A DNA stretch of 64,000 nt. Source: Coriobacteriia bacterium. Lineage in GTDB: Bacteria > Actinomycetota > Coriobacteriia > WRKU01. Position 1 is the stretch's first letter; every line of letters begins with the position of its first letter. The notes under the pieces are model-generated. The model saw only the letters and a program-made list of their open reading frames with translations, was not told where the DNA came from and searched no databases. The stretch is taken from assembly GCA_009777935.1 (NCBI GenBank), contig WRKU01000001.1:1-64000 (forward strand). Reading direction: 5' to 3'. Shown here piece by piece: positions 7,704 to 38,730 of the stretch. The position numbers and the translations under genes are program-made.

Positions 7704-8924
7704 TCACCTGCGTACGAGCTCTTCGCGCAACGGAAAGAGCGCGGTGTAACTCGCCAGAATATAGAGTCGCTCGTTGTCGTACGCAAGAGTTTTTCGTAGC
7801 GCGTCGTGCAGATTAGCCTCGATCTGTACCGCGCCATCATGCACTCCGGCAGCACCCACAAATGTCGCCATCTCGCCGGCACACGATCCGCTCACTACGA
7901 TATGTTGAGGCGGCCTTTGACGAAGCGTCGCGTACTCGATGTCAGCGTACCAGTCAATCGACTCACCGTCTGCAGGCGTGTTATTCGTGGCGACCAGCAG
8001 GCTGTATGAGCCCTCGCCCTCGCGCTCCTGTGCGGCGATAAACGCGAGACTCTGGTTGAATCCGGCCGGGTTCTTAGCCATGTTGAGAACGACCGTTTTG
8101 TCGGCGACCGATAGCCGCTCCATGCGGCCCGGCTGTGTCCGATAGTACGCAAGTGTCGTGCGAATCTGCTCGAACTCCACACCCTCACGACGCGCGACGG
8201 CGAGTGCGGCCATGATATTCGAGAGGTTATACGTCCCTGATAGATCGGTAGCCATCTCGACATCGTCGACCTTAAAGACACCCTCGGCGACGTGTGTGGC
8301 ACGATAGTCGGCCTCGTTTTCAATGCCAAACTCGATGCCAAACGTCACCACCGCGCGTGGACCAACGGCTGCGCGCAGTGCGAGCGAGTCGGGGTTGTCG
8401 GCGTTAAGTACGACCGTCGCATTCTCAGGCGTATGAGCGATGGCGCGCTCCAACGCTTCGCGCACGGCCTCAACGGAGCCGAATCGGTCGAGCTGATCGG
8501 GGAAGAGATTCGTGACGACTACGTAGGTAGGCCGCGCCTCTGTGCCCACCTGCGCACATATCTGCGTCGCGTAGAGCTCATCGACCTCGATGACGGCGTA
8601 GTCGGCCTGCAGGCGCCCCACAAGAGGGACCTGGCGCAAAAAGGCCGCGAGCACTCCTTGCGGCATATTCGCACCGGCCGCGTTGCAGACGACTGTATAT
8701 CCTGCGTCACGCAGCATCTGGGCGCAGAGATTCGTGACGGTCGTCTTGCCGTTGGTACCAGTCACGACGATAGTCCCGCGCGAGACTTCAGCAGCGAGCT
8801 TCGTCAACAGCTGAGGGTCTATCGCACGCGCCCAGAGGCCGGGAAGCGAGGTGCCGCCGGCGCCAACAAGGTGCGTGATTGCGTACGCAAGGCGCGCCGC
8901 CACTAAAGCAAAAAAGCGCCTCAT
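7704..8924 (-). CDS. MurT-like Mur ligase
   Basis: IVVTGTNGKTTVTNLCAQ P-loop, VIEVDE, NLFPDQLDRFG, LNMAKNPAGFNQ (DUF1727 signature); no Cys4 ribbon visible. Confidence 0.85.
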   Translation of the reverse strand: MRRFFALVAARLAYAITHLVGAGGTSLPGLWARAIDPQLLTKLAAEVSRGTIVVTGTNGKTTVTNLCAQMLRDAGYTVVCNAAGANMPQGVLAAFLRQVPLVGRLQADYAVIEVDELYATQICAQVGTEARPTYVVVTNLFPDQLDRFGSVEAVREALERAIAHTPENATVVLNADNPDSLALRAAVGPRAVVTFGIEFGIENEADYRATHVAEGVFKVDDVEMATDLSGTYNLSNIMAALAVARREGVEFEQIRTTLAYYRTQPGRMERLSVADKTVVLNMAKNPAGFNQSLAFIAAQEREGEGSYSLLVATNNTPADGESIDWYADIEYATLRQRPPQHIVVSGSCAGEMATFVGAAGVHDGAVQIEANLHDALRKTLAYDNERLYILASYTALFPLREELVRR

Positions 8925-22695: not shown

Positions 22696-22718
22696 TGGGG
22701 CGAGCAACGGGATTCGAA
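22696..22718 (-). repeat. Direct copy of tRNA-His 3' end (island att-like site)
   Basis: tggggcgagcaacgggattcgaa, identical to 38653-38675. Confidence 0.92.
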
Positions 22719-22827
22719 TTCAGATTATCCCGCATATTTAAGCACAAAACTCGCCGTTAATCGGACTAAATTGTACCATACCGTATCACGTGGCGTGACA
22801 AAAATGTGACAGAGCCGTGCGTTCTTC

Positions 22828-25800
22828 TCATGTATGTAATCCCACACGAGAAGCGCGTTCCTTGATTGCTAATGCTGCAGCCCTCTCCTCCTCGGAACCA
22901 GCAAGTCTCTTGTCCCAGTTATCGGTGGCAGCATCCATAAATCCCTCCCCAAGAAGAATATTGTCTAAATAATCAGGTGAGATTGCATCTACGACTTGAA
23001 TAAAGTCAGAAAGATCTTCACATAGATATCTGTGTCGATCATCTAGCTTTAATGAGTTGCGTATATTTGATTCATTATCTTGTAGAACCCTAAGAGCTGC
23101 TTGATGGTCGATAGCTTCTATGACCCGCAATGCTTCAGCACATTCATCGAAGCAACCTGGACACCGAAGTTTGACACGCCCACTTTCAGCCAACCTTACT
23201 GCAAGTTCCGGCACTAAATCTACCGCACGAGAATCAATTGCCACCCACTCACTCTCATACTTCTCAAAAAGCATACGACCTGGCTGGCTGTCACTTGCAT
23301 AACAAAAGGCAATTAGGATCTGCTGAAGACTTTCATTATCAAAGGGACCTGCAGATACTGTCTCCTCTAGGGCGGTAGCATCGACGTGTTGCATCATTTC
23401 GTCAATTGCGTTTTGAGAAACTGCCCCAATCGAATAAGTGAGCATACCAAAGCTTTCCAGCTCGACACGATTTGCCTTCCGCACATTCTTTCCTACTTTT
23501 GACCAATCAACTTCCTCAATCCATTTTCTTATGGCTGCTCCATAGGTAGCGTAATCATCGCCAAAACCTTCCTTGTACGCAAAGCTATAGCAGGTAACGA
23601 GCCAAGAGAACATGGCGCGAGCTGTACTGGCAGGATTATCTTCCATGCTCTCTTTCAAAACAGGACTGACAACCCCAAAAGCAACTGTGCCAAGAAAGGG
23701 ATCTAGAAAAACTAATCTTTGGATTAGTTCGCAAATCCCATAAATTGAATCCGAGACACTAGCTTTACTAAACCAATCAAAGCATTGTTCTTTGCTCACC
23801 TTATGACAAAGTAGTTTTTCTTGATCAGGTTCAGCCTCATGGTCAATTTGGGAATATTCGCAAATAAGTCTTTCCCATGCCCCTGCGTTTTGCACTGAGC
23901 CATGCTCGAACATGCGACCAAGAGTATCTGAGAAAGATACTGTCGTCAAAACATCGGTATGTCGCTCTGTACTGCCTCTTCCCCTGAAAGAAGATATCAA
24001 GGTTCCGAGACCGAAGGCATCTTCATCAGTGCAAACCGCCAGCCATACCTTAGCCCTGTCTGCAATTAAATCAAGAAGATCGTCAGGGACAAGACTGTCT
24101 CGAATGAGTTCACTTAATAACAAACTTGCCAAATGCACATCATCCGGATTCTCTCGGGAAAGACAACTGCTTACGACTAGATTTACAGTATCCGCATCAA
24201 ACACGAGTCTTCCGGAAGGATATATCTCACGAGCCCAACAGAGTTCACTGACAAGCCAATACTTACCTTTCAGGGCAATTTCGTCAGATGCTAAACGTTG
24301 ACGGATATAATCGACTATTCCGCTTTCCGTACTCCTGGTGTCATCATAAATAACCCTATTGATAACTGCACCCGTAAAACGTATGTGGGGGCATCTATAA
24401 TACCCACCTTGTTCAGAAATAAGTCTGGAACCTTCAATATCTGTTAGTGCGGACTCGCAATCTATGTCAACAAAATTCAACCTTAGGAGATTTTTGAGTT
24501 CCGCTCGCCTAATGCCTCCATCGAGACTTAGCAATTGTTCAGTAGCAATAACCACATACGCAACCCAAGCAGAGTCACTCAGTCCTGCCATGCGACTTTT
24601 GATTTCACGATCACCGCCACGCATGATACTCATGAATTCCCACGGAGATCTAGCAGAGGAGGCGTCGCTTATCCTCCTGTGTATGCTTTCTCGTGCCGCT
24701 CCAATTCCAACTCTATTGTCAAGTTCAGAAACAACCTCGACCAATTCATTTGCTCTTGAATCACAAAAGGTCTTAATAGTCTTTACAGATTGCGCATCAT
24801 GAAGACTTGTTGATTCTTCTCTGATTGTGCCCCACTCAGTTGTACAGGCGATAATTTTGCAGTTCGCAGAGACCGATCTTTCAAGTGCTAAGCGAATGTC
24901 TGGTGCTACTGCCTGGCAGTCGTCCACTACCGCGACAACCAGCGATTCAATAGTACGAAGCTCACGGACAGCATCCATTGTTACATTTCCGGGATTTGCC
25001 GACTCAATAACATTCCAGCCATCCCTACCCATATCACGCGCAACCTGAAAAGCAGTCAGAGATTTCCCTGATCCACTACCACCGGCTACTATGGCAAATC
25101 CTCCGCCCTTTAAGTCCGCTAGGATTTTTTCCGCACCTGGTAATCTCGGAGCAGAATCAACATCTTGCGGACCAAGACGCATACCCGAAAGGACAGCGGA
25201 CAATCCTCGCTGTCGATCATAATTGACCCACTGCCAATGAAGCAACTCTCCCGTAGCACTTAATTGTTCAGCCATTATTGGCAAAATAGTATCAGCTGTA
25301 CCAGCAAGACCGTTGTGTCCGGTAGCACTTGGACTTACTCGATAATAACCATACTTCTCCCTAAGCGGAATTGCCAAGTGCTTCTCAACAATTTCGTCAC
25401 TGCCCGAGTAGCCTATTTCAATCAGAGTAGCAGTATGTTGCTCTAATAGCGCATCAAGTCTATCGACAATCTCTTCTGGCACCACGCCACCCTCGTAAGG
25501 AAAAACCCAATGCCCTTGAATGTCTCTAGCATCTCCATGCGGCTTAATCAAAATGTCCTGCGGTATCTCGGCCCCAAAAAGCGACCTATAGGCTCTTTCT
25601 AGTAAAGTATCCCAGTTCAAAGAGACGGCGTATTTGACGTGTTCATGCTTAATCATTTTCGCTAAGGCAAGATGGGCGGCTGTCGGATTTTTTTCAAGAT
25701 CAAGAACTGCGAAAAGCTCTTTGAAGGTCACTGCAAGAGTCCTTGAATTGGCAAGTGCAATCCAAGCCATCTCAATGCGCTTAGAATCGCTGTCAATTAT

Positions 25801-26025
25801 CTGCTTAGCCGGACCATCGGAAACAGCAAGTGCTGTCGCAAGTTGCTTTCGTTCTTCAGGATTTTTATCAAAAGTTTTCCAAAGCAATGCCGTAAGTTCA
25901 TTTGCCATCGGATGAGATGACGCCGACATGCCGGCCCCTACTATGACAATAGCGCCGTAGGAATTGACCATTCTTGTAGCGTTTTGCAGGTTTTCCTCTA
26001 CTGGCATTGACCCTCCATACATCAA
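22828..26025 (-). CDS. SIR2-like N-terminal domain plus STAND/P-loop NTPase and large C-terminal region (Avs5-like architecture)
   Basis: GAIVIVGAGMSASSHPMANELTALLW, VKYAVSLNWDTLLERAYRSLFG, KPHGD, LIEIGYSGSDEIVEKHL; Walker A AIVAGGSGSGKSLTA, Walker B LVVAVVDDCQ. Confidence 0.8.
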   Translation of the reverse strand: MMYGGSMPVEENLQNATRMVNSYGAIVIVGAGMSASSHPMANELTALLWKTFDKNPEERKQLATALAVSDGPAKQIIDSDSKRIEMAWIALANSRTLAVTFKELFAVLDLEKNPTAAHLALAKMIKHEHVKYAVSLNWDTLLERAYRSLFGAEIPQDILIKPHGDARDIQGHWVFPYEGGVVPEEIVDRLDALLEQHTATLIEIGYSGSDEIVEKHLAIPLREKYGYYRVSPSATGHNGLAGTADTILPIMAEQLSATGELLHWQWVNYDRQRGLSAVLSGMRLGPQDVDSAPRLPGAEKILADLKGGGFAIVAGGSGSGKSLTAFQVARDMGRDGWNVIESANPGNVTMDAVRELRTIESLVVAVVDDCQAVAPDIRLALERSVSANCKIIACTTEWGTIREESTSLHDAQSVKTIKTFCDSRANELVEVVSELDNRVGIGAARESIHRRISDASSARSPWEFMSIMRGGDREIKSRMAGLSDSAWVAYVVIATEQLLSLDGGIRRAELKNLLRLNFVDIDCESALTDIEGSRLISEQGGYYRCPHIRFTGAVINRVIYDDTRSTESGIVDYIRQRLASDEIALKGKYWLVSELCWAREIYPSGRLVFDADTVNLVVSSCLSRENPDDVHLASLLLSELIRDSLVPDDLLDLIADRAKVWLAVCTDEDAFGLGTLISSFRGRGSTERHTDVLTTVSFSDTLGRMFEHGSVQNAGAWERLICEYSQIDHEAEPDQEKLLCHKVSKEQCFDWFSKASVSDSIYGICELIQRLVFLDPFLGTVAFGVVSPVLKESMEDNPASTARAMFSWLVTCYSFAYKEGFGDDYATYGAAIRKWIEEVDWSKVGKNVRKANRVELESFGMLTYSIGAVSQNAIDEMMQHVDATALEETVSAGPFDNESLQQILIAFCYASDSQPGRMLFEKYESEWVAIDSRAVDLVPELAVRLAESGRVKLRCPGCFDECAEALRVIEAIDHQAALRVLQDNESNIRNSLKLDDRHRYLCEDLSDFIQVVDAISPDYLDNILLGEGFMDAATDNWDKRLAGSEEERAAALAIKERASRVGLHT

Positions 26026-26248
26026 AACTAATTAGTTGTGGCACCCTCATATTATATGCGCTCGCGACAATCATGGGTCCAATCCAAAATTGGTTGGTAG
26101 AATTCAAGAGCCTTCATGGTCAACACTTGCTAAAGATGGATTTTGTTGGATTAACTGAAGGATCGGAAACTTCGTCCCAGTCGATCAAAATTTAACCGGA
26201 GTGATGCGACATAAAATCTTGACACGAAAATGGTACAGAAGTGTGTCA

Positions 26249-26971
26249 TTATTCCGGGATTAAGTCAATGCTTGCCAGTAGCATTTTTCCAAGTCTAGTA
26301 ATGCCTATGGATTTCCGTTCAGGCTTTCCTATGGAATCGACGTTTGCCACCTTTGTCCTATCATCAATCTTGAAAGTTCTAATTTTTTCCTCTAAAAGAT
26401 TGAGCTGCAGAAGATGCTCTCTATAACTATCCTGAAGTGCTTTTTTGTCACGCGTCCTATCACTGGGCGGCATAGACTTATCTGCGGACACCAATACATT
26501 TTCGTGTTTGGTTTGAAACTCCTTGTCGCCTCCAATAGAAAGACCGAAATAGTATCTAAGCCAAAGTATCTCAATATCATTCAATTCATTTAGGATTCGG
26601 AGAAGATGCTTTGATTCGACATACGATATATCTTCAGAAGTAAGACTGTTTGCGACAAGTGATGCCAAATACGAACGTCGTTCCTCAGTTACTGCTCGTG
26701 CAGCAGCAATTACGGCATCTTCGAGCAAATCCGTAAAGTCTGCATCCTGCATGATGTCGTTTGCATTGCTCCATTCAAGAGCATCTATTCGCTCCTCTAA
26801 CTTGACTGAAAAATCAGCAATCCGGTCTATGCGCTGATTGGGAATAATAGTAGTGATTAGCTCACCCAGAAGCCCACCAGCAATCGGAATAGCACTTAGG
26901 GCTGCGCGGGATATCGCAGCCAAATAATCCATCTTATTTTCTGCCAGTTGTTTCTCAGCGCTGCTTTTCAT
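26249..26971 (-). CDS. Defence-island-type small protein with hydrophobic N-terminal segment
   Basis: 240 aa ...ALSAIPIAGGLLGELITTIIPNQRIDRIADFSVKLEERID...; 11 bp after upstream kinase gene. Confidence 0.6.
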   Translation of the reverse strand: MKSSAEKQLAENKMDYLAAISRAALSAIPIAGGLLGELITTIIPNQRIDRIADFSVKLEERIDALEWSNANDIMQDADFTDLLEDAVIAAARAVTEERRSYLASLVANSLTSEDISYVESKHLLRILNELNDIEILWLRYYFGLSIGGDKEFQTKHENVLVSADKSMPPSDRTRDKKALQDSYREHLLQLNLLEEKIRTFKIDDRTKVANVDSIGKPERKSIGITRLGKMLLASIDLIPE

Positions 26972-26982
26972 GGGATGGAAGA

Positions 26983-27567
26983 TTAAAAAGGAAACCCACG
27001 CGACTTCATTTCACCACGAACGGTTTCCACTCTTTGCTCAAGAGAGCCATTCACAGTGATGAAGTCCACATCGTTTTCCATCAGCAGAGAATAGATCATG
27101 GTATCCACTCTGCTTCGGTAATCCTCATCGCCAGGACGTACGTCATCCATAGTTAAGGGAAATTCAATCGGAAAATACACGTAGAAGTCGTACTTTTCTT
27201 TTTCCATCAACCAGATATTGCGCATCATCTCAATCAACGAATCTGGCACATAGGGTCTAGGAAGTTCCTTATTAACAAGTGCATAAGCAAGTGGATCAAG
27301 TATTGTCCTGTCACTGACAAAAACATCATACGCAAACATAGCCTGTTCGGCTGTAAGTTGATCGTTCACGTAATGAATATAGGACTCCATATTCGCGTCC
27401 TGATTTAGGGGATACCCTTTTGCTATTATCTTTCGAGCTACCTCCGTAATATGCTTGAGGTCAAACTCAGGAGACAAATCGTGCTTCAATTGGTCAAACA
27501 AGGTTGTTTTGCCAGTACAATGCGAACCAGCCAAAGCGATACTTATTGAGTTGTGCTTAGTCCCCAT
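26983..27567 (-). CDS. P-loop NTPase/kinase, NadR-like (AAA_28-type)
   Basis: ISIALAGSHCTGKTTLFDQLKHDL...ITEVARKIIAKGYPLN...FVSDRTILDPLAYALV. Confidence 0.8.
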   Translation of the reverse strand: MGTKHNSISIALAGSHCTGKTTLFDQLKHDLSPEFDLKHITEVARKIIAKGYPLNQDANMESYIHYVNDQLTAEQAMFAYDVFVSDRTILDPLAYALVNKELPRPYVPDSLIEMMRNIWLMEKEKYDFYVYFPIEFPLTMDDVRPGDEDYRSRVDTMIYSLLMENDVDFITVNGSLEQRVETVRGEMKSRGFPF

Positions 27568-28471
27568 GGAATAATCCTTTCATTGCTAGTGCTCCTTCAT
27601 CCTGAGTATCACGAGCTTCACACACAACAACTGGCGATATTTTCTTTCTTTGTATTGCCTCTATGAAATTCTCTGCACGGGGATAATACTTATCGAGCAG
27701 GGATTCATCCTCAAGCAAACTTACTTGATAGTTCTCGATCCTATCATCAAATGCTTTATGTTTCTTCTCGCCATTATGGTCAACCTCGACAGGATACATA
27801 TGAAAGTGTGTCTCTTCAAGCATTTCTCTACCCAACTGATTTTCAATCATATCTAGAATCTCCACGATAGATTCAGTCGATACCAGCGAACCGCCTCTGA
27901 AAGCATGAACATGCGCTACATCAACACAGGGCCTTGCGAAAGAAACTTTGGAGCATATGTAAATTATTTCCTCAATGCTACCGACCTGATTTCTCTTTCC
28001 TGCGGTTTCCGGATACAAAAAGATATCATCAGCAGGAAGAGATTGCTTGATACCATTGAGTCCTTCAATTATTTTTTCTACAGCATTTGCGCGATCATCG
28101 GCACTCTTCCCTGGATAGTGGCCCGGATGAAAAATGATACGACTTGATCCTATTTTTTTCGCCAAATCATAGCACTGTAGAATTCTCTCTTTGGATCGTT
28201 TGACAACTTCCTCATCAGCACTTGCAAGCGTCACATAATACGGTGCGTGTAGTGAAATGCCAATATTATACTCGTCAGCCAATTCCCTGTATCGGTGAGC
28301 TTGCTCGCTCTTCATTTTCACACCATATGTATTTTGTAGCTCAACCCAATCAAGCTGCAAACAATTGAGCCACTGAAATATATTATCCCGGTTTTTTCGG
28401 AACTCACTCTTGTGAAATGCTGGGGGAAAGCCAGCAACACCGAAAAGTACACTATCGCTTAAGTTTGTCAT
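27557..28471 (-). CDS. Endonuclease IV / xylose-isomerase-like TIM-barrel protein
   Basis: GVAGFPPAFHKSEF, ISLHAPYYVTLAS, RIIFHPGHYPGKS, YPETAGKRNQVGSIEEI, CVDVAHVHAFRGG. Confidence 0.8.
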   Translation of the reverse strand: MTNLSDSVLFGVAGFPPAFHKSEFRKNRDNIFQWLNCLQLDWVELQNTYGVKMKSEQAHRYRELADEYNIGISLHAPYYVTLASADEEVVKRSKERILQCYDLAKKIGSSRIIFHPGHYPGKSADDRANAVEKIIEGLNGIKQSLPADDIFLYPETAGKRNQVGSIEEIIYICSKVSFARPCVDVAHVHAFRGGSLVSTESIVEILDMIENQLGREMLEETHFHMYPVEVDHNGEKKHKAFDDRIENYQVSLLEDESLLDKYYPRAENFIEAIQRKKISPVVVCEARDTQDEGALAMKGLFHGD

Positions 28472-29763
28472 ACCGCAATCCGGTATGCTACCGGAGAGCT
28501 TGTATAAACCTCTTCAGAAAGTCGATGAAGCACACCTTCGCTCGCGCAATACGCCGACCACAACGACTGCACAAAACCACGTGAGATGCCTGCTGCGTCA
28601 CCAATGACAAAAAGATTGCTGACATTCGTCTCAAAATGAGAGTCAGTCATTACATATGAGTTGAGTCGATCAACTGAAGGTAGCCACATGGGATACTCAT
28701 CAAGATTTCCTTCGATAGCACCTGTTGCACTTAGCGCCTTCACAAACGTAGACAATGCACCCAAAAGTTCATCATACACATGAGTATCACTTATTAGTTT
28801 GTGATGATACTTAACGAAATCTTTGAGTGTTAGGTCTGCTGAGAGATATTTCTCCAAATGACGACAGAAGTCATATGCCATTTCATTTCCAACAATTTTT
28901 GGGGAGCGGGCTAACACGCCGACATTTGCCAAATCTGATATTTCATCAACAAAGTGACCATCGTAATACCGTGTTCCATGCAGATCGACAATCGTTTTGT
29001 CGCCGCCAGAACATACACAGAAAGTTCTTATTCCAATTCCACTAATTTGCGCTTTTAGTTTAACGTCTTTTCCGATAGAACCAAAAGTGGAATCTTCTTG
29101 CAATTGCATAGAAAAACGGAAACCCAAATCTGGGCTCTGCTTGCGCAGCAAGACATCCTTTCCTAGTAGATTCTCCATGCGCCCAGCCGAAAAACGTCCC
29201 GTTGCCATTATCAGAACGTCATACACACTATATGCCACTAAGGTATTGCTTTCACTATAGTTTGCAAGAAATTTCTGGCCACTTTTTCGATAACCCAAGA
29301 AACGACAGTTTGTTTTTATCTTAACCCCATGAGCATCCAAGGTAGTCAGCAATTGCTTAACGTAAGCATTCATTTTTTCTTTCTTAACCAAAACGGAATG
29401 ATAGGATTTTTCACCCACTCCATGTTGCATGTAATCTTTCCGCAATGTTGTCTCTTGAGCAGTATCGCTGCATTCAAGTCCAAAAGAATTGAGGCACTTT
29501 TGCTCAAACTGAAAAAAACGTTCATGAGAGTAGTCGGTATGCCTCCAAACTCCTCCACTTGCAGGCGGAAGACAGAGCTTGCCACCAAAGACCGTACCTG
29601 CACCGCCGACGCCAGAAACAAGGTTTGGTTTCGTACTGCGAAGTCTACTGTCATAAGTATTACCACACTCAAGCACAGTAACGTCTACATCTGCATTTCG
29701 TGCCAACAAGTAGGCCGTCATCAGACCGCTTAATCCTGCGCCAACGATTAATACTTTCTGCAT
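28468..29763 (-). CDS. FAD-dependent oxidoreductase (COG2509-like)
   Basis: KVLIVGAGLSGLMTAYLLARNADVDVTVLE, GVGGAGTVFGGKLCL, FVIGDAAGISRGFVQSLWSA. Confidence 0.85.
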   Translation of the reverse strand: MQKVLIVGAGLSGLMTAYLLARNADVDVTVLECGNTYDSRLRSTKPNLVSGVGGAGTVFGGKLCLPPASGGVWRHTDYSHERFFQFEQKCLNSFGLECSDTAQETTLRKDYMQHGVGEKSYHSVLVKKEKMNAYVKQLLTTLDAHGVKIKTNCRFLGYRKSGQKFLANYSESNTLVAYSVYDVLIMATGRFSAGRMENLLGKDVLLRKQSPDLGFRFSMQLQEDSTFGSIGKDVKLKAQISGIGIRTFCVCSGGDKTIVDLHGTRYYDGHFVDEISDLANVGVLARSPKIVGNEMAYDFCRHLEKYLSADLTLKDFVKYHHKLISDTHVYDELLGALSTFVKALSATGAIEGNLDEYPMWLPSVDRLNSYVMTDSHFETNVSNLFVIGDAAGISRGFVQSLWSAYCASEGVLHRLSEEVYTSSPVAYRIAV

Positions 29764-29774
29764 AATTGACCCCC

Positions 29775-31043
29775 CTATTCTTTCGCTGGAAAGCTCTCAT
29801 CATAAGCAGACGAGTTTCTGATTGATATAACTTCATCAGATGTATCTCCTGCATCAACGGTCTGATCTTCAGATGTTCTTTCGCGCTCGATAGATTCAAC
29901 CTCAACTGCATCAATCCTTTTTTCAATATCGGCAATTCGTTCATTCACGCCCGTGAGACCCGGCAGCCAAATACTCAAGAGAACGCTCAGGGCAGCTGAG
30001 GCAAGTGCTGCGACAAGAGCGATAACAGCAGCTGTCCATCTAAGTCGCAGCTCTGCCCTTTTCTCGACCTGCAAAGCAATTTTCCTTATTGTGTCATCAG
30101 AATTGATTTCGTTGATTACCTCATGTTTCAATCCCAATAGACCACAATCACCTGGAAGTCGCCCCTCTTTCCAGAAGTATCGTACTTCCTGGATGCCCTT
30201 ATCGTCACAAAAAAGTTTCTTTTCGTATTTTTCTGCATTGTCTTTGCAAATCTTTTTTATGATTTCACTTCTTTTATCAGCTTCACAAAAACAAGATACA
30301 TAAGAAAATTCAGCGGTTGCGATTCGCTCACCCAGAGACAGATACACAGGTTCATTGCTGAAGTTGTGAATGAAACAAAACAACCTGCCTTTATAGCATG
30401 GACCAATTTGGGTGCCCTGTTGGCTCACTAAGCCTTGCTGAACTTTCTCCAACCTCAAATCGAATCTTCCAACAACTAGGTATCCTTTATTCGGATCGGT
30501 AGCAACAGTGTGTGTATCTACGATTTCATGTAACTGGATAAGTGCCGATCCATATGGCGGGATCTTGATCTTATTTGGATTGGCACGATTCTGATAGCGA
30601 TATTGTGGAGCTGCCTCAGAGTATTTTTTATTCAAGTCTTCTAAGAGTTCTGGATCTCCAACAAATGCTGGACTCCATTTTTGGTCATCCCCTTCATCAT
30701 TGCCGTTCGCAGAAGCCCGTCTCCATAACTTCCACTTCTGATTGCCGGAATTGCCATCATCGCTATTTTTCTTATTGCCATCGTATATGTAGTGACAGTT
30801 GCCAAGCGTTAAATCAACTGTTGCAGACTTATAATTGTTAGACTTGCTACCATCTTCCAAAACGATTAGCCCATGAGCCTGTATTTCTTCTCTGGTTAGT
30901 GTTCCTGCAATTTTCTTAAAGCAGCTGATGATATGATCGCATGGCTCTTCGATTGGCTGAGATTCGCTTTGTGCAACTTTGCTATCTGCTGCGTCAGAAT
31001 CATCTCGTCTTGTCTCATCGTTCATGATGCTGCAATCCTCCAT
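29775..31043 (-). CDS. dCTP deaminase/dUTPase-fold protein with C-terminal TM helix
   Basis: YKSATVDLTLGNCHYI, QIGPCYKGRLFCFIHNFSNEPVYLSLGERIATAEF; TM WTAAVIALVAALASAALSVLLSIWLPG. Confidence 0.75.
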   Translation of the reverse strand: MEDCSIMNDETRRDDSDAADSKVAQSESQPIEEPCDHIISCFKKIAGTLTREEIQAHGLIVLEDGSKSNNYKSATVDLTLGNCHYIYDGNKKNSDDGNSGNQKWKLWRRASANGNDEGDDQKWSPAFVGDPELLEDLNKKYSEAAPQYRYQNRANPNKIKIPPYGSALIQLHEIVDTHTVATDPNKGYLVVGRFDLRLEKVQQGLVSQQGTQIGPCYKGRLFCFIHNFSNEPVYLSLGERIATAEFSYVSCFCEADKRSEIIKKICKDNAEKYEKKLFCDDKGIQEVRYFWKEGRLPGDCGLLGLKHEVINEINSDDTIRKIALQVEKRAELRLRWTAAVIALVAALASAALSVLLSIWLPGLTGVNERIADIEKRIDAVEVESIERERTSEDQTVDAGDTSDEVISIRNSSAYDESFPAKE

Positions 31044-31281
31044 CCTACTAGGCCTATGTGTGATGCTGTCCCTATACCGACAGCACTTCCAAGTCCTGCA
31101 CGTAAAGTTTCACGCTATCATCATACATGATGTCTTGACAAGACTCGAACCTCCAACTATTGCCTTCGTGAAATCCTAAAGAACCCATACATCTGTGATG
31201 GTCGAAAATGTCTCCTGCTGCGATAAAAGATGCTGCGGTTCGAGCGACGGATATTGCGCCACCCATGCTACACTTATAGAC

Positions 31282-31413
31282 GCAACGAAAGGGTTTTATA
31301 TAAACAGCGATATGCTGCGCTCTCAAGAGCGGGCTGTCGTTCGAATTCATGCAGAGGTGTCCGGCCTCTGAAATGAGTTTGAGCGGCATTGCTGTTTGAA
31401 ACTCTTTCGTTGC
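31282..31413. other. 132-nt extended imperfect palindrome (structured RNA or MITE-like element)
   Basis: GCAACGAAAGGGTTTT pairs with GAAACTCTTTCGTTGC; AAACAGC/GCTGTTT; internal CGCTCT-ca-AGAGCG and CAGAGG-tgtccgg-CCTCTG. Confidence 0.75.
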
Positions 31414-31482
31414 AAGGGGCCGGCACCTCTACATCTTTTCAAGTGCTTTCCCCAATAATGCAAACGAGGGAAAGGGCAGACA

Positions 31483-31896
31483 ATGTACGGTGAAGACATC
31501 AGCATCAAACAACTCTATGACGCAATTAGCGAACTACCCGCCGATCCCGTAAAACCCATAGAGGAATACGGCTGCGGCTGCCAGACAAGCTACAGGAGCC
31601 AATGGCTCGCGTGGTTAGGTTGCCCTCACTCCAAGAGAAAGCGAAAAACCGGGCGTACCGCCGAAGATGTCTACGACAGAATTGAGAATCCCGGTATGCT
31701 CCTGTGGCTCATCGAGGAAGCACACAGGCAAGAGAGCTTCATCGATCTAATAGGAGCACGTGAGGAAGCGCATCGCGAGAGCACCAATTACATGAAGTGC
31801 ATGGCCATCAGAGATGCGGTGCCGTGGGAAGAGGTAGCTAACGTCCTTGGCGTTGTAGAATACCTCTCTGAGCCCGATACCCCTCCCACTGCGTGA
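31483..31896 (+). CDS. Hypothetical protein
   Basis: 137-aa ORF MYGEDISIKQLYDAISELPADPVKPIEEYGCGCQ...; SD-like gaggg/agggc upstream. Confidence 0.55.
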   Translation: MYGEDISIKQLYDAISELPADPVKPIEEYGCGCQTSYRSQWLAWLGCPHSKRKRKTGRTAEDVYDRIENPGMLLWLIEEAHRQESFIDLIGAREEAHRESTNYMKCMAIRDAVPWEEVANVLGVVEYLSEPDTPPTA

Positions 31897-31900
31897 GCTT

Positions 31901-32572
31901 CTATAGGGATTCCAATCGCTCCATCTCTCTTTTGTGAATTTCGTCTTGGCGATCAAAGTCTGGTTCCCAGAACGCATCTTGCACTGTACCCCAGATCAAG
32001 CCGAATAGCTCAAAGGGTACTTTGAGAAAATACCAGATTCCTTGCGCCCAAAATCCAAATGCTTTGTCTGGAGCTACGAAGCCAGCCTTATCTTTATCTT
32101 CGCCTTTTTCGGGCACGAGAACTCGTCTGCGTTTCCTGCGAAGTGTCCAAAGCAATATGCCGGCAATCAGTACCATAAGAAGCCCGGCTACCATCAAGAC
32201 AAACGCCCAATACCCTATCCCGATGAAAGCGATGATTATGATAGGCCACGCCCAATAAACACCAGCACCGTATTTAAGGATTCCTCCTCGGTAACTTACC
32301 CCTACCACCGCACCAGCAAGAATCGATAGCGCTCCTAGGAAAACGTCTCCTGTCCCAGACTGTAGCCAAAAGATAGCGTCTTCGACAATCTTCGGATTAT
32401 CGACAGAAAAGTATTCCAGCAATTGATAATACGCCTCAAGCGGCAGAAAGCGTAGTGAATGATAAGCGCTGTAAGCAAGCACCCAGAAAATAAGACCTCC
32501 AACGATTGTTCTAAGTAGCAGTCGCCATCCTCGATCACCCAAAACCGAACGTGCCTCATCAGAAATTGCCAT
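31901..32572 (-). CDS. Multi-pass membrane protein, hypothetical
   Basis: 223 aa with several hydrophobic helices (RTIVGGLIFWVLAYSAYH; WPIIIIAFIGIGYWAFVLMVAGLLMVLIAGILLW). Confidence 0.65.
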   Translation of the reverse strand: MAISDEARSVLGDRGWRLLLRTIVGGLIFWVLAYSAYHSLRFLPLEAYYQLLEYFSVDNPKIVEDAIFWLQSGTGDVFLGALSILAGAVVGVSYRGGILKYGAGVYWAWPIIIIAFIGIGYWAFVLMVAGLLMVLIAGILLWTLRRKRRRVLVPEKGEDKDKAGFVAPDKAFGFWAQGIWYFLKVPFELFGLIWGTVQDAFWEPDFDRQDEIHKREMERLESL

Positions 32573-32715
32573 CCTTTGTCCCCTCTTCTCATAGTGCTAC
32601 AACTCTTTCGTTCAGTATATCCGAGGGGTGGGACACATTCCGATTCGCGCAACACCGAAAGCATGTGTGCCCGCAACGCCTCTATCTAAAATGGCTTTAT
32701 TCCATCTCGCGGGTA

Positions 32716-32750
32716 TTGTCAAAAAGTTACTATGGTGGTAACCTTTTGAC
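32716..32750 (+). promoter_or_regulatory. Promoter with 13-bp-arm operator directly upstream of the abiEi ATG
   Basis: GTCAAAAAGTTAC (32718-32730) / GTAACCTTTTGAC (32738-32750), 12/13 complementary; possible -35 TTGTCA, -10 TAACCT or TACTAT. Confidence 0.75.
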
Positions 32751-33320
32751 ATGAACGAAATCGTTGGAAATATAGACAAACTACGTGAGATCGCTCTGAC
32801 CCAACACGGGTATGCCACGACTCAACAAGCATTAGATGCAGGCGTAACCAAACGAGCATTGGCAGATCTCACGAAACGCAATCGTCTTGAACGTGTAGTC
32901 TTTGGCGTATATCGTGTACCTCAGGTGCCCTACACGCAATACGATGCGTTCATGTTAGCTGTGTTGTGGACAGGAGTGCCAGAAGCTGTCATAAGCCACG
33001 AGACTGCCCTAGATATGTACGATGTGAGCGATATCAACCCAACAAAGATTTTTGTGACAGTCGCAACAAATCGCAGGATACGGCGTAAAGGTGGCGAGCA
33101 CTATGTTGTGTATCATCAAGATCTGCGACCAGATCAAATAGGGTGGCAAGAAGAGATCCCTTCGGTCAAGTTACCGACAGCCATTGAGCAGTGTATTGAG
33201 AGCGGTGTGCCCACATACTTGCTCGATCAGGCAATTGAACGTGGTCGCGCAAAAGGACTTCTGACTATTGATGACGAAAAAACCTTAACGCAAAAACTTG
33301 AGGAGCGTAGTGGACGATAA
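32751..33320 (+). CDS. abiEi: Type IV TA antitoxin, AbiEi family
   Basis: MNEIVGNIDKLREIALTQHGYATTQQALDAGVTKRALADLTKRNRLERVVFGVYRV...AVISHETALDMYDVSDINP. Confidence 0.9.
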   Translation: MNEIVGNIDKLREIALTQHGYATTQQALDAGVTKRALADLTKRNRLERVVFGVYRVPQVPYTQYDAFMLAVLWTGVPEAVISHETALDMYDVSDINPTKIFVTVATNRRIRRKGGEHYVVYHQDLRPDQIGWQEEIPSVKLPTAIEQCIESGVPTYLLDQAIERGRAKGLLTIDDEKTLTQKLEERSGR

Positions 33321-34260
33321 AACCAAAACCGTTTCTGCTGATGACCTGGAAAGATTGTCGTCAAAAACCAAGGATCCGCATTCAGTAAGTGTGCTTGATA
33401 AGTGGATCGCACTTGCTGAAAACGAGATGGGACTTGGGCAAAGCGGAAGATTATCGTGGCTTATTGCCTCTACTGTCGTTACTGCCAAACTTCAACAGGT
33501 GGTCGATGATGCTGGAAACGGCAGATTCTTGCTTAAGGGTGGCACGTTACTCCAGCACAGGCTTAGTCCGGTATCAAGAGCTACGAGGGATCTTGATGGC
33601 ATGGTACGTGGCGAAATCGAAGATTTCTTCGTGTGCCTCGATAGGCAACTAGATGAGTCCTGGGGGCCAATCGAGTTTAGGCGCAGTGAGGCAATACCTA
33701 TCAATATGCCCACTAAGATCATAAAGCCGCAGCGATTTGACATGATTCTTTTGCTGCGTGGTCGAGTATGGCGAAAAATCACCGTGGAGGTATCCCCCGA
33801 TGAGGGACACGCTACCACCATACATGAAGAGTTTCCCGCTCCATCACTTGCGGGGTTTGGCTTGCCAACTCCAGAGCGTCTTATCGGACTTTCAATGGGC
33901 TATCAAACGGCTCAGAAAGTGCATGCGGCGAGCGATCCACATGACCCACCTACATTCATCAATAATCGTGCGAGAGATGTGGTGGACTTGCTGCTCATCA
34001 AAGAATTAGCAGATGCTACCGGCAGTCCAAGCGAAAGTGAGATTTCCTCTGCCATCATCGACATCTTTGAGGCACGAGGGCGCGAAGCTGACGAACTCGG
34101 CAGACCAGTGCGGATATGGCCTGCCCATATTAGCATTCATCCGCATTGGGATGAGGACTATGCGGTCGCGGCAGGATCAGTTGGGATTGATACGGAGCTT
34201 GCTGATGCGGTAGAACAACTCAATGAATGGCTGGATATTCTAAGTATCAAGTCGGCCTAG
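33298..34260 (+). CDS. abiEii: Type IV TA nucleotidyltransferase toxin, AbiEii family
   Basis: GRFLLKGGTLLQHRLSPVSRATRDLDG NTase motif; overlaps abiEi 3' end. Confidence 0.9.
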   Translation: MRSVVDDKTKTVSADDLERLSSKTKDPHSVSVLDKWIALAENEMGLGQSGRLSWLIASTVVTAKLQQVVDDAGNGRFLLKGGTLLQHRLSPVSRATRDLDGMVRGEIEDFFVCLDRQLDESWGPIEFRRSEAIPINMPTKIIKPQRFDMILLLRGRVWRKITVEVSPDEGHATTIHEEFPAPSLAGFGLPTPERLIGLSMGYQTAQKVHAASDPHDPPTFINNRARDVVDLLLIKELADATGSPSESEISSAIIDIFEARGREADELGRPVRIWPAHISIHPHWDEDYAVAAGSVGIDTELADAVEQLNEWLDILSIKSA

Positions 34261-34278
34261 GTCCTTGGCGATCTAACC

Positions 34279-35190
34279 ATGAAACAAGTATCACCTTTCT
34301 CAGCTAAACTCATCCGCATACTAATCGTCCTGCTTCTGGTCGGGCTCATTGCGGGCGCGGCAGTCGGTTGTGCAGATACAAGCGTACCTGTGAGCAATGC
34401 GAATGAAACAACCAGCAAGCCTGTTGATGGACTTCTCAAAGTGCACTATATCGATGTCGGACAGGGCGACAGCGCATTCAGAGAGCTACCGGATGGCAAA
34501 ACGATACTTATAGATGCCGGACCAAAAGGCCAAGGAGCTACTGTTGTTTTATATATCAAATCTCTCGGTCACTCCAGCATCGATTACCTTGTTGCCACAC
34601 ACCCTGACGCAGATCACATTGGTGGAATGTCTCTTGTTATTGAGTCATTTGCTATCGGCGAGGTTTGGGAACCGAGCAGGACGAGCAATTCAAATACATA
34701 CAGGGATCTGCAAGTACTGATTACCGCAAGGAATATACCGAGGCGCATAGCACAGGCGGGAGACCTGATACATGCAGCAGATAATCTTACTGCTACTGTT
34801 TTATCGCCTGCTGCCGACAAAACCTATCGCAACGACAATAACGATTGGTCGATAATCATCGAGCTTGTCTTTGGCAGCGATATCTTCCTATTTACAGGAG
34901 ACGCGAGCACTGCAGTCATTCTCGATGCAAAAAACGACAAGATCGATGTGCTCAAAGTGGGACACCATGGTAGCAACACAAGCACTGATGAGCGATTGGT
35001 ATCTGCACTTTCTCCTGATTACGCGGTCTTTTCAGTTGGAAAAAATGGATTCGGTCATCCCCATCTTGAGGTACTCAATTTCCTCAGCACAGCAGATATA
35101 TTTCGCACAGACAAACAAGGTACCATTATTATAGTCTCTGACGGCACCAGCATTACCGTCAACACAGCCCCTTGGGTGTTTGGACAATAG
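34279..35190 (+). CDS. Secreted/lipoprotein ComEC-like metallo-beta-lactamase-fold protein
   Basis: Signal/lipobox-like GAAVGCAD; VHYIDVGQGDSAFRELPDGKTILIDAG, THPDADHIGG, LFTGDAS, VLKVGHHGSNTSTDERL. Confidence 0.88.
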   Translation: MKQVSPFSAKLIRILIVLLLVGLIAGAAVGCADTSVPVSNANETTSKPVDGLLKVHYIDVGQGDSAFRELPDGKTILIDAGPKGQGATVVLYIKSLGHSSIDYLVATHPDADHIGGMSLVIESFAIGEVWEPSRTSNSNTYRDLQVLITARNIPRRIAQAGDLIHAADNLTATVLSPAADKTYRNDNNDWSIIIELVFGSDIFLFTGDASTAVILDAKNDKIDVLKVGHHGSNTSTDERLVSALSPDYAVFSVGKNGFGHPHLEVLNFLSTADIFRTDKQGTIIIVSDGTSITVNTAPWVFGQ

Positions 35191-35226
35191 GTGCTTACTG
35201 CATGCGGTAGTACTATCCAGCCAAAC

Positions 35227-35532
35227 CTATCGTTCTAAGTAATATCCAAAGGCGGAATTGATCTTTATCATACCATCATCAAGAGTGGTGAAATTCACTG
35301 TCGTGAGAACAAGTCTGCCACCATCAATATCAAACTCATAGGGATCCCATTCATCTCGAACCCAATCCGTGCTACGGGGTATCGGCCTAACCAAAGAGTC
35401 GATAAAACCGCATGAACACATCATGAGCAAGGCGCCAATCACAAAAGTGACTACCGCTATTGTGGCTGCCCACTTCTTCGATATTGCATTTTCGGGCATT
35501 GTCGTTGTTGGGGATTCTTCTTGTGTGTTCAT
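35227..35532 (-). CDS. Hypothetical membrane-anchored protein
   Basis: 101 aa; TM AATIAVVTFVIGALLMMCSCG. Confidence 0.5.
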   Translation of the reverse strand: MNTQEESPTTTMPENAISKKWAATIAVVTFVIGALLMMCSCGFIDSLVRPIPRSTDWVRDEWDPYEFDIDGGRLVLTTVNFTTLDDGMIKINSAFGYYLER

Positions 35533-35538
35533 AACACC

Positions 35539-36225
35539 TCAGCCCAGCGCCCTCATAAGACCAGAGCGGAAATTGCTTTCATAAACAGCAGGCACATTGG
35601 CACGCGCTTCGATCTCTCTTATCACTTTAATCAAAGAGACCTCATTCAAGACATCCCGACACGCATCAACATCCTCAAGGTTACGCACGATATAATGACC
35701 GACGATTTTATTTCCGATGGCGCCGGCATGGCTGGTAAGCAAATCTCCACTTTCCTTCGGCGCTACGTTGATTCGTACTATCTCGTCATGAGTGGAAATC
35801 CTTACCTGCACAATCGCAGCTCGATATCCACCACCTTGTTTGCGAGGATTATTGACTACCGCAAGCCCCAGAGATTGTATTGAGCTGTAGGAAATAATCT
35901 CATCTCGCTTGCCATACTGCAGGGTGACGGCTTCTTCTCCAAATACAGCTTCGCCATTCTGCTCACCCCATTTCGCAAAAAACTTAATCAACGACACTAT
36001 TATGATGAAGATGGGAGCCATCATCATTATCAGATATAACGGTATGCCTAGTCCCATCTGAACATTGTCATCAAGACTTTGCCACCACCGAGAAGATGCA
36101 AGCAGCATAGCAACAATCCATACAGGAACCAAACCTGCCGACAACGCTGCGATGAGAATCAGAATCGCGGTAGTCTTATTGGAGATAACTGAGTATCTGA
36201 AAGGAATGGCTTTAATTTCTGTCAT
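35539..36225 (-). CDS. Hypothetical membrane protein
   Basis: ATG at 36225; two TM segments then soluble C-terminus. Confidence 0.6.
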   Translation of the reverse strand: MTEIKAIPFRYSVISNKTTAILILIAALSAGLVPVWIVAMLLASSRWWQSLDDNVQMGLGIPLYLIMMMAPIFIIIVSLIKFFAKWGEQNGEAVFGEEAVTLQYGKRDEIISYSSIQSLGLAVVNNPRKQGGGYRAAIVQVRISTHDEIVRINVAPKESGDLLTSHAGAIGNKIVGHYIVRNLEDVDACRDVLNEVSLIKVIREIEARANVPAVYESNFRSGLMRALG

Positions 36226-36287
36226 GGATTTATTGTAGCCCAGTTTTGCTAGAATGAAGTTGCCTGACCTGAGCCAAGGGAGTACAG

Positions 36288-36827
36288 TTGCCGAATCTTC
36301 GCTCATCTTTTATGCGCAATGTTTTGTGCTCATTCGCAATCTATGTGGCTGCTGTTGTGTGTTCGGTTCTTGCCTACGTGTTAACTCTTATGCTGGTAAT
36401 CGTTGCTAGCATATTTTCCGAAATCATATTCCTCGTTGCAACTGTGGCACTTGTTTGCACCGGTCCAATCTTATGTGTCTTGTTAGGCTACAAATTCTTG
36501 GTTCCTCTACCCAAAAGAAACATGCTATCAGTCTTGTCTCCAGCCTTCTTTCTGCTTGTCATTACGGTGCTAATAAGTACAATGCTCTCGTCAGCAGGCA
36601 GCCTAGAAGCATACGAAGAAGTAGCGTTTCTTTTGTATCCGGGCAACTATGCTTTGCTCACTTTATTGACATGGCTAGTTGGTTGGAAATTCTGGAGCGA
36701 TGGGCTTGGTTTTTTCGTGGTGCTTGCCTCATCGTTTCTGCCGTCATTTCTTATGTATCTTGGGTTGAGGCTTAAGATACGTGCGCAAAACACATCGGTA
36801 TTGATCGAGGAGAATAATAATGAATAA
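36288..36827 (+). CDS. Hypothetical multi-pass membrane protein (paralog A)
   Basis: 179 aa ending SFLPSFLMYLGLRLKIRAQNT... Confidence 0.6.
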   Translation: MPNLRSSFMRNVLCSFAIYVAAVVCSVLAYVLTLMLVIVASIFSEIIFLVATVALVCTGPILCVLLGYKFLVPLPKRNMLSVLSPAFFLLVITVLISTMLSSAGSLEAYEEVAFLLYPGNYALLTLLTWLVGWKFWSDGLGFFVVLASSFLPSFLMYLGLRLKIRAQNTSVLIEENNNE

Positions 36828-37397
36828 CCTTCGTCCGCTTCTGAGAAACAATCTGGTCGCACTCGGGATTTTTGGAATTATTCTCGTATATGGATTTATG
36901 GCTATGCGTTTTCATGGGCTACGCCATTCAATGATCCTGTATCGCTTAGTATACTTCCGCTAGCTCTGGGTGTCATCGCTTTGGTCGGGTACATTCTACT
37001 CGGCTACGTGTTTCTAAGGCCTTTGCCACGACGAAATCTTTTGTCAGCATCGGCTCCCACCATTCTATTGGCGCTCGTTCTCATCGCAGAGTTCGTGCAT
37101 CGAATCTTCTTTCTTAGCACGCCCTCGAAATACTATGTGTTCGGGACGGTTTCCATCTTTTTAAACGTCGGTGTGACGTTTGTAACTGTGGGGATGGATG
37201 CCATACTTCAACTACTATTTCCGGGCAATGGATACTTCTTCGGATTTTATGACCTCACGCAACAAGGGCAGTGGATGACCGTCTTTGTCATGCTACTCAT
37301 CATGGCACTGTTGCCTTCATTTCTAATGTATCTCGGCCTGAGGCTTAAGACGCGCAGTCAGCGCAAAGGGCGAATACTAATCAACGAGAAAATATGA
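36820..37397 (+). pseudogene. Frameshifted paralog B of the preceding membrane protein
   Basis: ATG 36820 gives MNNLRPLLRNNLVALGIFGIILVYGFMAMRFHG... stopping at 36963; another frame continues YAFSWATPFNDPVSLSILPLALGVIALVGYILLGYVFLRPLP...LLPSFLMYLGLRLKTRSQ. Confidence 0.65.
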
Positions 37398-37405
37398 AAA
37401 GAGTA

Positions 37406-37711
37406 TTAGGAAATTCGACAAACAAAATAGACCGGAAGAACGATAGCTGTTCGATCGAGCTTCTTTCTCGTAGCAACAAAAGCGCATGCACCGAAAAGTA
37501 TAGAAACAAGAAGGGCACTTGCAATGATGTAGAGCAGCTTATTGGGAATTGAGATCAAACCGAGAATTCCTCCGTATGAAGTTACAAAAAACAACGCGAG
37601 GGAAATTCCGTTCAGTACCCATAAGATAGCAGGAAACCTTGCATTCATCGATTGTTCACCTAACTCCTTCTCTGTCTGCTGCACGCCAGTCCATTCAACC
37701 TTCATGTTCAT
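37406..37711 (-). CDS. Hypothetical membrane protein
   Basis: Helices AILWVLNGISLALFFVTSYGGI, LLYIIASALLVSILFGACAFVA. Confidence 0.5.
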   Translation of the reverse strand: MNMKVEWTGVQQTEKELGEQSMNARFPAILWVLNGISLALFFVTSYGGILGLISIPNKLLYIIASALLVSILFGACAFVATRKKLDRTAIVLPVYFVCRIS

Positions 37712-38324
37712 CCTCAAATCTAAGGATGGGTTCCTCGATGGGCTCACGCCTTTGTCTACTCACAGTGGGCGGCGGAGGTATGAAAAGTGACCAATCTTCT
37801 ATAGCATTTGGATCTAGCCATGGTCCACCATAGGCATATCCATCAAGCAAATCTATCTTCCCATCCACAACAAAGAGAATGAATCCTGCGCCGTGCTCTA
37901 AATCTTTCACATTCGCGCTCTTCGCTCCAAGTTGAAGATTGGGCTCGCCTGGGATAGGTTTTGCATTGGGCGATACCGAAAAATGTGTAAAGAAGCCGTG
38001 TCCGGTAAACTCCCTGCCCATAACTTGAATTGATTTGTATTGTGGCGAAAGCCACTCTTTCAGCTCTTCATCTTCTGCAATGATATCTAGCATCACATCG
38101 CGCTCAAATTGGATGAATTTTTTGCTTATCTTGCGCTCATCCACATATAAGGCAACGGTCAACTCATGGTCGTATGACGCGTCATTGATATGCGCATGAT
38201 TGCCAGGACTATTATCCTCCAGTAGCCCATCAACATAATCACGAAGTTGCCTTGCTTCCATGATCGTCAAGTTCAGAGAAAGGCTTTTGATATCTGCGCC
38301 TGTGAGCATATCTCGCATTCTCAT
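37695..38324 (-). CDS. Hypothetical protein
   Basis: 209-aa ORF MRMRDMLTGADIKSLSLNLTIMEARQLRDYVDGLLEDN... Confidence 0.55.
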   Translation of the reverse strand: MRMRDMLTGADIKSLSLNLTIMEARQLRDYVDGLLEDNSPGNHAHINDASYDHELTVALYVDERKISKKFIQFERDVMLDIIAEDEELKEWLSPQYKSIQVMGREFTGHGFFTHFSVSPNAKPIPGEPNLQLGAKSANVKDLEHGAGFILFVVDGKIDLLDGYAYGGPWLDPNAIEDWSLFIPPPPTVSRQRREPIEEPILRFEDEHEG

Positions 38325-38348
38325 AAACTATTTCCTGTTTCTTCTTAA

Positions 38349-38463
38349 AATACCCTTTTACCTTTCGCGTGAGCAGCCCGAGCCTCTTTCAAAGACATCT
38401 TGTTCGCGCCACCCGTATAGCCGTGATCGTGATACTGCACATAATCATATGCGCAAATCAGGT
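38349..38463 (-). pseudogene. C-terminal remnant of an unidentified protein
   Basis: Hand translation MHLICAYDYVQYHDHGYTGGANKMSLKEARAAHAKGKRVF*; no ORF upstream. Confidence 0.4.
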
Positions 38464-38521
38464 GCATCACTCAACGCAGATAAGTAGCGTTTGAGAAACC
38501 CACGCAGTGTTAATGTCGCCA
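38445..38521 (-). pseudogene. 5' fragment of a paralog of the gene at 3014-3562
   Basis: MATLTLRGFLKRYLSALSDAPDLRI* versus MRVLTLRGFLKRYLTELSDSPDLRM. Confidence 0.8.
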
Positions 38522-38652
38522 TGATTGATGCTCCCCAACACAGCTTTCGTCTTTCTCGAATATGGCAGAAGTTGCCTGCATGACAAGATTGAGGTCTATC
38601 GTAGTCGTACCCCGAGACTGTGCCCACATAAGAATACGATTGCAGACACTAG

Positions 38653-38730
38653 TGGGGCGAGCAACGGGATTCGAACCCGCGGCCTCCTGAGCCACAGTCA
38701 GGCGCTCTAACCAACTGAGCTATGCCCGCC
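38653..38730 (-). tRNA. tRNA-His(GTG), CCA encoded
   Basis: GGCGGGCATAGCTCAGTTGGTTAGAGCGCCTGACTGTGGCTCAGGAGGCCGCGGGTTCGAATCCCGTTGCTCGCCCCA; G-1:C73 pair. Confidence 0.96.

Follow-up and report, generated by a model that had tools for sequence, protein, structure and literature searches.

A rare, mobile four-gene module with a dCTP-deaminase-fold membrane protein that looks like an undescribed bacterial immune module

Introduction

Among the described systems closest to the locus reported here are the cyclic oligonucleotide-based antiphage signalling systems (CBASS) and Pycsar, the combination of viperin with a nucleotide kinase, and Qat, which comprises a KAP NTPase, a QueC-like protein and a TatD TIM-barrel nuclease. 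The locus is a compact operon on the minus strand, at positions 26249–31043 of a 64,000-nucleotide stretch (hereafter the window) from a Coriobacteriia bacterium (assembly GCA_009777935.1, contig WRKU01000001.1, positions 1 to 64,000). Its first four genes encode a membrane protein with a dCTP-deaminase/dUTPase (DCD) fold, a flavin adenine dinucleotide (FAD)-dependent oxidoreductase, a TIM barrel resembling endonuclease IV (EndoIV, Nfo) and a P-loop kinase. An earlier interpretation of the same DNA, the sequence-only reading, had proposed that these genes and a fifth one form an undescribed system for defence or nucleic-acid modification.

With CBASS and Pycsar the module shares only its proposed logic, namely that a small signal resembling a nucleotide is perceived by a receptor linked to the membrane. 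It lacks a cyclase and any known effector domain, and all four of its proteins belong to other families; no nucleotide cyclase was found among the core proteins or the scanned genes of the surrounding genomic island. Viperin plus kinase is similar in placing a kinase next to a redox or tailoring enzyme, so that a modified nucleotide is a possible product, whereas the module has no radical SAM enzyme, uses an FAD enzyme and a TIM barrel, and adds the DCD-fold membrane protein. The likeness to Qat lies in a TIM-barrel enzyme, nucleotide-type chemistry and a KAP gene beside one copy of the module; however, KAP is not conserved with the module core, and the protein in question is matched far better by the PADLOC candidate PDC-S20 than by QatA.

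Among the named systems of PADLOC v2 (2023), no match was obtained for the DCD-fold protein or the TIM barrel, and the kinase and the FAD protein gave short, weak matches, mostly confined to the nucleotide-binding N-terminus. The four-gene combination is not described in the PADLOC, NCBIfam, Pfam and PHROGs models or in the open-access literature, a later or subscription description being possible. This agrees with the sequence-only reading, which had not recognised the gene set as a named system. The module looks like an undescribed bacterial immune module and, regardless of its function, it is a four-gene mobile unit that occurs across three phyla and for which the system libraries searched gave no match.

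Conservation of the four-gene core

In the window, five open reading frames (ORFs) run along the minus strand from 31043 down to 26249 with spacings of +11, −4, −11 and +11 bp, as previously reported. The most upstream is the DCD gene (29775–31043; 422 aa), which encodes a dCTP-deaminase/dUTPase-fold domain, one transmembrane (TM) helix and a C-terminal coiled coil. A second ATG lies at 31025 with GGAGG 8 bases upstream of it, and the gene may start there rather than at 31043. It is followed by the genes of the FAD-dependent oxidoreductase (28468–29763; 431 aa; VP0956 (3nlc)/COG2509-like, with DAO and Pyr_redox_2 matches), the xylose-isomerase-like, EndoIV-like TIM barrel (27557–28471; 304 aa; AP_endonuc_2), the AAA_28 P-loop kinase of nucleoside/nucleotide type (26983–27567; 194 aa) and an accessory protein with a hydrophobic N-terminal helix and weak similarity to LPO_1073/Vpar_1526 (26249–26971; 240 aa).

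The order DCD-FAD-TIM-kinase, on a single strand, was found again in a Lachnospiraceae metagenome-assembled genome (L042), in Desulfoluna butyratoxydans (L043) and in a second Lachnospiraceae (L052). Counting the window, the module is present in four genomes from three phyla; its flanking genes are unrelated, and its own genes overlap or are closely spaced. Identities to the window proteins in L042, L043 and L052, respectively, were 62, 57 and 60% for the TIM barrel, 51, 51 and 47% for the kinase, 40, 32 and 39% for the DCD-fold protein, and 46, 36 and 24% for the FAD enzyme. In a tree of the FAD proteins, the window, L042 and L043 copies formed a clade with support of 100/100. The L052 copy fell outside this clade on a long branch, and its gene is thus judged from sequence to have been replaced or to have strongly diverged, with a FAD enzyme still encoded at the same position. 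L042 and L043 were the two close loci, beside one distant locus, returned by a pattern scan of approximately 85,000 species genomes with the FAD alignment. L052 was not returned by that scan but came from a search with a TIM profile across the L042 family (396 genomes), so that the scan's count of two is a lower bound.

The 240-aa gene is accessory, since it is missing from all three other loci, and the conserved core consists of the four upstream genes. Relatives of its product, which matches NCBIfam LPO_1073_dom below the cut-off (2e-4) and contains no Pfam domain, are encoded on Marinobacter and Methylobacterium plasmids, there without the core genes. A unit of five genes was consequently rejected. 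Of the earlier proposal, to be checked by neighbourhood comparison, the co-occurrence of the four core genes stood in all three additional genomes, whereas the fifth gene did not accompany them and its product does not hold as the built-in effector.

The dCTP-deaminase-fold membrane protein

The DCD domain is recognised weakly by sequence, with Pfam DCD E-values of 9e-4 for the window copy and 3e-8 for the L043 copy, and archaeal dUTPase/DCD profiles match it as well. In a fold search, the best 29 PDB matches of the window protein were all dCTP deaminases or dUTPases, the model itself reaching a pLDDT (predicted local distance difference test score) of only 45. The fold assigned in the sequence-only reading is thus faint in sequence and clear in structure comparison.

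In E. coli Dcd numbering, Glu138 is replaced by Phe, Phe, Tyr and Phe in the four copies (Phe in the window). All four copies also carry Leu for Ser111 and Gln for Arg126, and Arg115 is retained in the L043 copy alone. A true deaminase was rejected as a candidate, as the catalytic residues Glu138 and Ser111 are replaced throughout, and the protein appears to have lost deaminase chemistry. A strong TM helix (residues 340–358 in the window) followed by a coiled coil is found at the C-terminus of the window, L043 and L052 copies. In L042, a metagenome assembly, the reading frame appears broken near 7800 (7780–7960), and homology to the window protein is picked up again in a second frame. Because Glu138 is lost and a TM helix and coiled coil are present, the DCD-fold protein is probably a receptor or effector rather than a deaminase. 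It resembles dCTP deaminases, bifunctional DCD-DUT enzymes and antiphage dCTP deaminases in the fold of its sensor-like domain, and differs from dCTP deaminase in the Glu138 and Ser111 changes and in the added TM helix and coiled coil. The membrane effector that the sequence-only reading had placed in the operon is accordingly best sought in this protein and not in the 240-aa one.

A search with the L052 DCD-fold protein led to a distant relative encoded on Sinorhizobium medicae plasmid pMl5 (gene set at L095:5851-8612), which has a DCD-fold domain and matches the family profile of the module proteins (hmmsearch 1e-6; hhalign 93%). It has Pro at the position of the catalytic Glu, a helix of moderate hydrophobicity and an end that resembles a coiled coil. 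The gene overlaps that of a PurZ-type enzyme (PHROG 1211, 4e-68) in which Asp13 is replaced by Ser; according to a 2026 study, all 147 phage PurZ sequences have Ser at this position (PMC12884076). Upstream, in divergent orientation, is a gene for a YfbR-like HD protein, and BilD (1e-165) and a PemK pair are encoded nearby, so that this PurZ-type gene is found outside a phage and in a defence neighbourhood. The arrangement supports, without proving, that DCD-fold proteins of this kind have partner enzymes for unusual nucleotides. Compared with the phage Z-genome genes (PurZ, DatZ), the likeness is the coupling of a distant DCD-fold relative to a PurZ-type enzyme and a YfbR-like HD gene; the differences are that the window module has no PurZ and that the plasmid pair is not part of a phage.

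The three soluble enzymes

The TIM barrel was modelled by AlphaFold2 with a pLDDT of 81. Its nearest PDB folds are EndoIV and then ketose 3-epimerases, and EndoIV is also its best sequence match. When aligned with EndoIV, it retains His69, Tyr72, His109, Asp179, His182, His216 and Asp229, and the equivalents of Glu145 and Glu261, shifted in the alignment and placed by eye, are invariant in the family. The barrel is that of Nfo, and most metal ligands appear to be kept. In contrast, the metal ligand His231 is Asn, the DNA-recognition residue Arg37 is Phe, and a low-confidence insert is present at 229–261. Against the nfo model TIGR00587 the protein scores 64.7 bits and does not reach the curated NCBIfam cut-off of 129.65.

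The kinase, conserved over the four loci, possesses an intact Walker A motif (GSHCTGKTT) and an SDRT motif, and matches PHROG 2107, annotated as 'thymidylate kinase', over its whole length (9.5e-28). The NadR-like identity given earlier stands at the superfamily level only (AAA_28, 2e-20), as the curated NadR ribosylnicotinamide kinase model yields 11.8 bits against a required 201. The other two enzyme calls of the sequence-only reading were borne out by the domain matches (DAO 2.5e-10; AP_endonuc_2 3.5e-25). The nearest PDB profile match of the FAD protein is VP0956 (3nlc, 4e-12), which is itself uncharacterised.

Relatives of two of these enzymes occur in other nucleotide-type gene sets. An AAA_28 kinase is part of a recurrent cassette on rhizobial and Roseibium plasmids (L026:3284-7071, L027:267-3886) whose other genes are annotated as a radical SAM protein, a 3'-5' exonuclease and an HD-domain protein. 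In L026, DncV-like and ThiF genes, which are CBASS-like, immediately precede the cassette. The HD protein weakly matches the dGTPase defence model. Distant FAD relatives were found in the gene order FAD-NUDIX-HAD on a Bacillaceae plasmid (L022:5884-8484) and Hpt-FAD-NUDIX-HAD-MFS on a Streptomyces plasmid (L023:5355-9855), which together represent another recurring gene set of nucleotide type.

Distribution and genomic context

The module is rare and patchy in its distribution. The core locus was not found in 72,556 plasmids (including tblastn for the DCD-fold protein), in 50,697 phages (tblastn with the TIM and DCD proteins) or in E. coli genomes (blastn). Viral contigs, scanned with single proteins and with broad alignments for the TIM, FAD and DCD proteins, gave no core member and only distant FAD relatives, and the kinase relatives seen in viral contig scans came without other module genes. 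Besides the seeds, whole-genome profile searches gave no further strong TIM match among 371 genomes of the window's class, 358 of the L042 class and 396 of the Desulfoluna phylum; genome G896 carries a stand-alone TIM protein only, with 29% identity. The FAD search in the window's phylum returned distant homologues only. Two other TIM matches, in Monoglobus and on a plasmid labelled Klebsiella pneumoniae plasmid unnamed2 (L020, NZ_CP061967.1), were rejected as stand-alone barrels without FAD and kinase neighbours. The gene content of the latter sequence is Firmicute-like, which suggests contamination from a Firmicute and not a true Klebsiella plasmid.

In the window, the 23-bp 3' end of a minus-strand tRNA-His gene (38653–38729), which forms the attachment-site (att) copy at 38653–38675 (plus strand), is repeated directly at 22696–22718 (plus strand), with no third copy in the window. 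This repeat places the operon on an integrated element of 15.9 kb (22719–38652), and gives exact limits to what had been described as a tRNA-bounded island. The GC content of the element is 45.4% against 57.5% outside it, and that of the operon is 42.7%.

At L052, an AbiEi-AbiEii pair ends within bases of the DCD start, upstream, and PemK and a serine recombinase are encoded downstream. At L042, a KAP NTPase gene (PDC-S20, 8e-158) ends 9 bp upstream of the module. At L043, the module is located between a Toprim/primase-type gene and P2-like prophage genes for a terminase, a portal and a scaffold protein, the last two being named from a reading of their sequences. The module is mobile, as follows from the att-flanked tRNA-His island, the prophage genes at L043 and the recombinase beside L052. 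Altogether, a defence or candidate defence neighbour is present at three of the four loci, AbiE at two, and mobile DNA at or beside at least three, a context that suggests a defence role.

Possible functions of the module

We give roughly even chances that the four DCD-FAD-TIM-kinase genes, judged from their sequences and neighbours, constitute a mobile module for antiphage defence or another conflict between genetic elements. In such a system, the three soluble enzymes would produce a small molecule of nucleotide type, convert it or salvage it; the kinase may phosphorylate it, the FAD enzyme oxidise or reduce it, and the TIM barrel isomerise or cleave it. Known DCDs bind their nucleotide between the subunits of a trimer, and for this reason the DCD-fold protein is probably a trimer as well; it would sense the enzyme-made molecule or a nucleotide pool altered by phage and, by way of its helix and coiled coil, relay the signal to the membrane, with impairment of the infected cell as the outcome. 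The 240-aa gene, the KAP NTPase and AbiE would be exchangeable companions at individual loci. A more specific proposal is a class of immune signalling in which the enzymes of the module synthesise an unusual (deoxy)nucleotide and a membrane-anchored receptor, a dCTP-deaminase fold devoid of catalysis, recognises it, the Sinorhizobium PurZ-DCD pair being a second branch with another enzyme for the signal. This proposal is put forward tentatively and is, on balance, doubtful. If true, domains of the dCTP-deaminase fold would have taken on the role of membrane receptors for special nucleotides. The pairing of enzymes with such a receptor would be an immune architecture with no relation to CBASS, Pycsar or Thoeris, and the module would offer a possible route to a new signalling or antiviral nucleotide.

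Several observations weigh against a defence or signalling role. Four loci are too few for statistics on defence enrichment; the L042 copy lies inside a polysaccharide cluster, and the L043 copy is carried by a prophage, where no named defence gene was seen. The DCD model is of low confidence, no TM helix is present in the second-frame remainder of the L042 protein in the sequence read, and the distant FAD homologue at L052 indicates a loosely conserved FAD partner. As for the PurZ-DCD pair, it represents one plasmid lineage, and the hydrophobic segment of its DCD-fold protein has a mean of 1.56, below the threshold of 1.6 used.

One alternative is that, like viperin and its kinase, the module synthesises a bioactive nucleoside or nucleotide, antiviral or antibiotic in effect. 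The product itself would block phage polymerases, and the DCD-fold protein would serve in self-protection or dosing and not as the effector. A kinase, a flavoenzyme and an isomerase-type TIM enzyme suit nucleoside tailoring, and both the NUDIX, HAD and Hpt neighbours of the distant FAD relatives and the radical SAM-exonuclease-kinase-HD cassette near a DncV-like gene point the same way. However, the core is not accompanied by a conserved radical SAM enzyme, glycosyltransferase or transporter. The DCD-fold protein is no less constant than the enzymes, and three of its four copies bear a membrane helix. This explanation is considered unlikely. Nucleic-acid modification or repair, in which the TIM enzyme would cleave or edit DNA or tRNA while the kinase and flavoenzyme hypermodify a base, draws on EndoIV as the best match in sequence and fold and on the similarity of the kinase to phage 'thymidylate kinases'. 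It is made improbable by the replacement of Arg37 and of the metal ligand His231, by the lack of a conserved methylase, transferase or DNA-binding domain, and by the fact that DCD-fold domains bind free nucleotides and not DNA.

A further possibility, that the genes are fitness cargo with an ordinary role in the catabolism or salvage of a nucleoside, sugar or cofactor, agrees with the polysaccharide cluster around L042 and with the ketose 3-epimerases among the fold matches, many AP_endonuc_2 TIM barrels being sugar isomerases. Yet no transporter, regulator or sugar kinase is common to the four loci, the module is very rare and patchy with mostly defence or mobile genes in its flanks, and a deaminase-dead DCD with a membrane tail is a poor fit, which makes a catabolic role rather implausible. 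Finally, that the five genes are a chance run of unrelated island cargo agrees with the loss of the fifth gene elsewhere, but is refuted for the four-gene core by the recurrence of its order in three other genomes across phyla, and the probability left to it is close to nil.

Other genes of the integrated element

The host genome measures 1.1 Mb and is 86% complete. In the scanned ORFs of the island, no integrase was recognised with Pfam. Both defence-type neighbours named in the sequence-only reading are present, with different strength. The SIR2-like/STAND-like gene (22828–26025, minus strand) has weak matches under the curated cut-offs (nSTAND_NTPase5 5e-6, SIR2_2 0.05, PDC-S65 9e-7) and is not conserved with the core module. 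The AbiEi-AbiEii type IV toxin-antitoxin pair (32751–34260, plus strand), on the other hand, is strongly matched in PADLOC (AbiEi 1e-65, AbiEii 3e-116). Further cargo of the element includes small membrane proteins and, at 34279–35190, directly after the AbiE pair, a lipoprotein-like protein of the metallo-beta-lactamase fold that resembles the ComEC tail.

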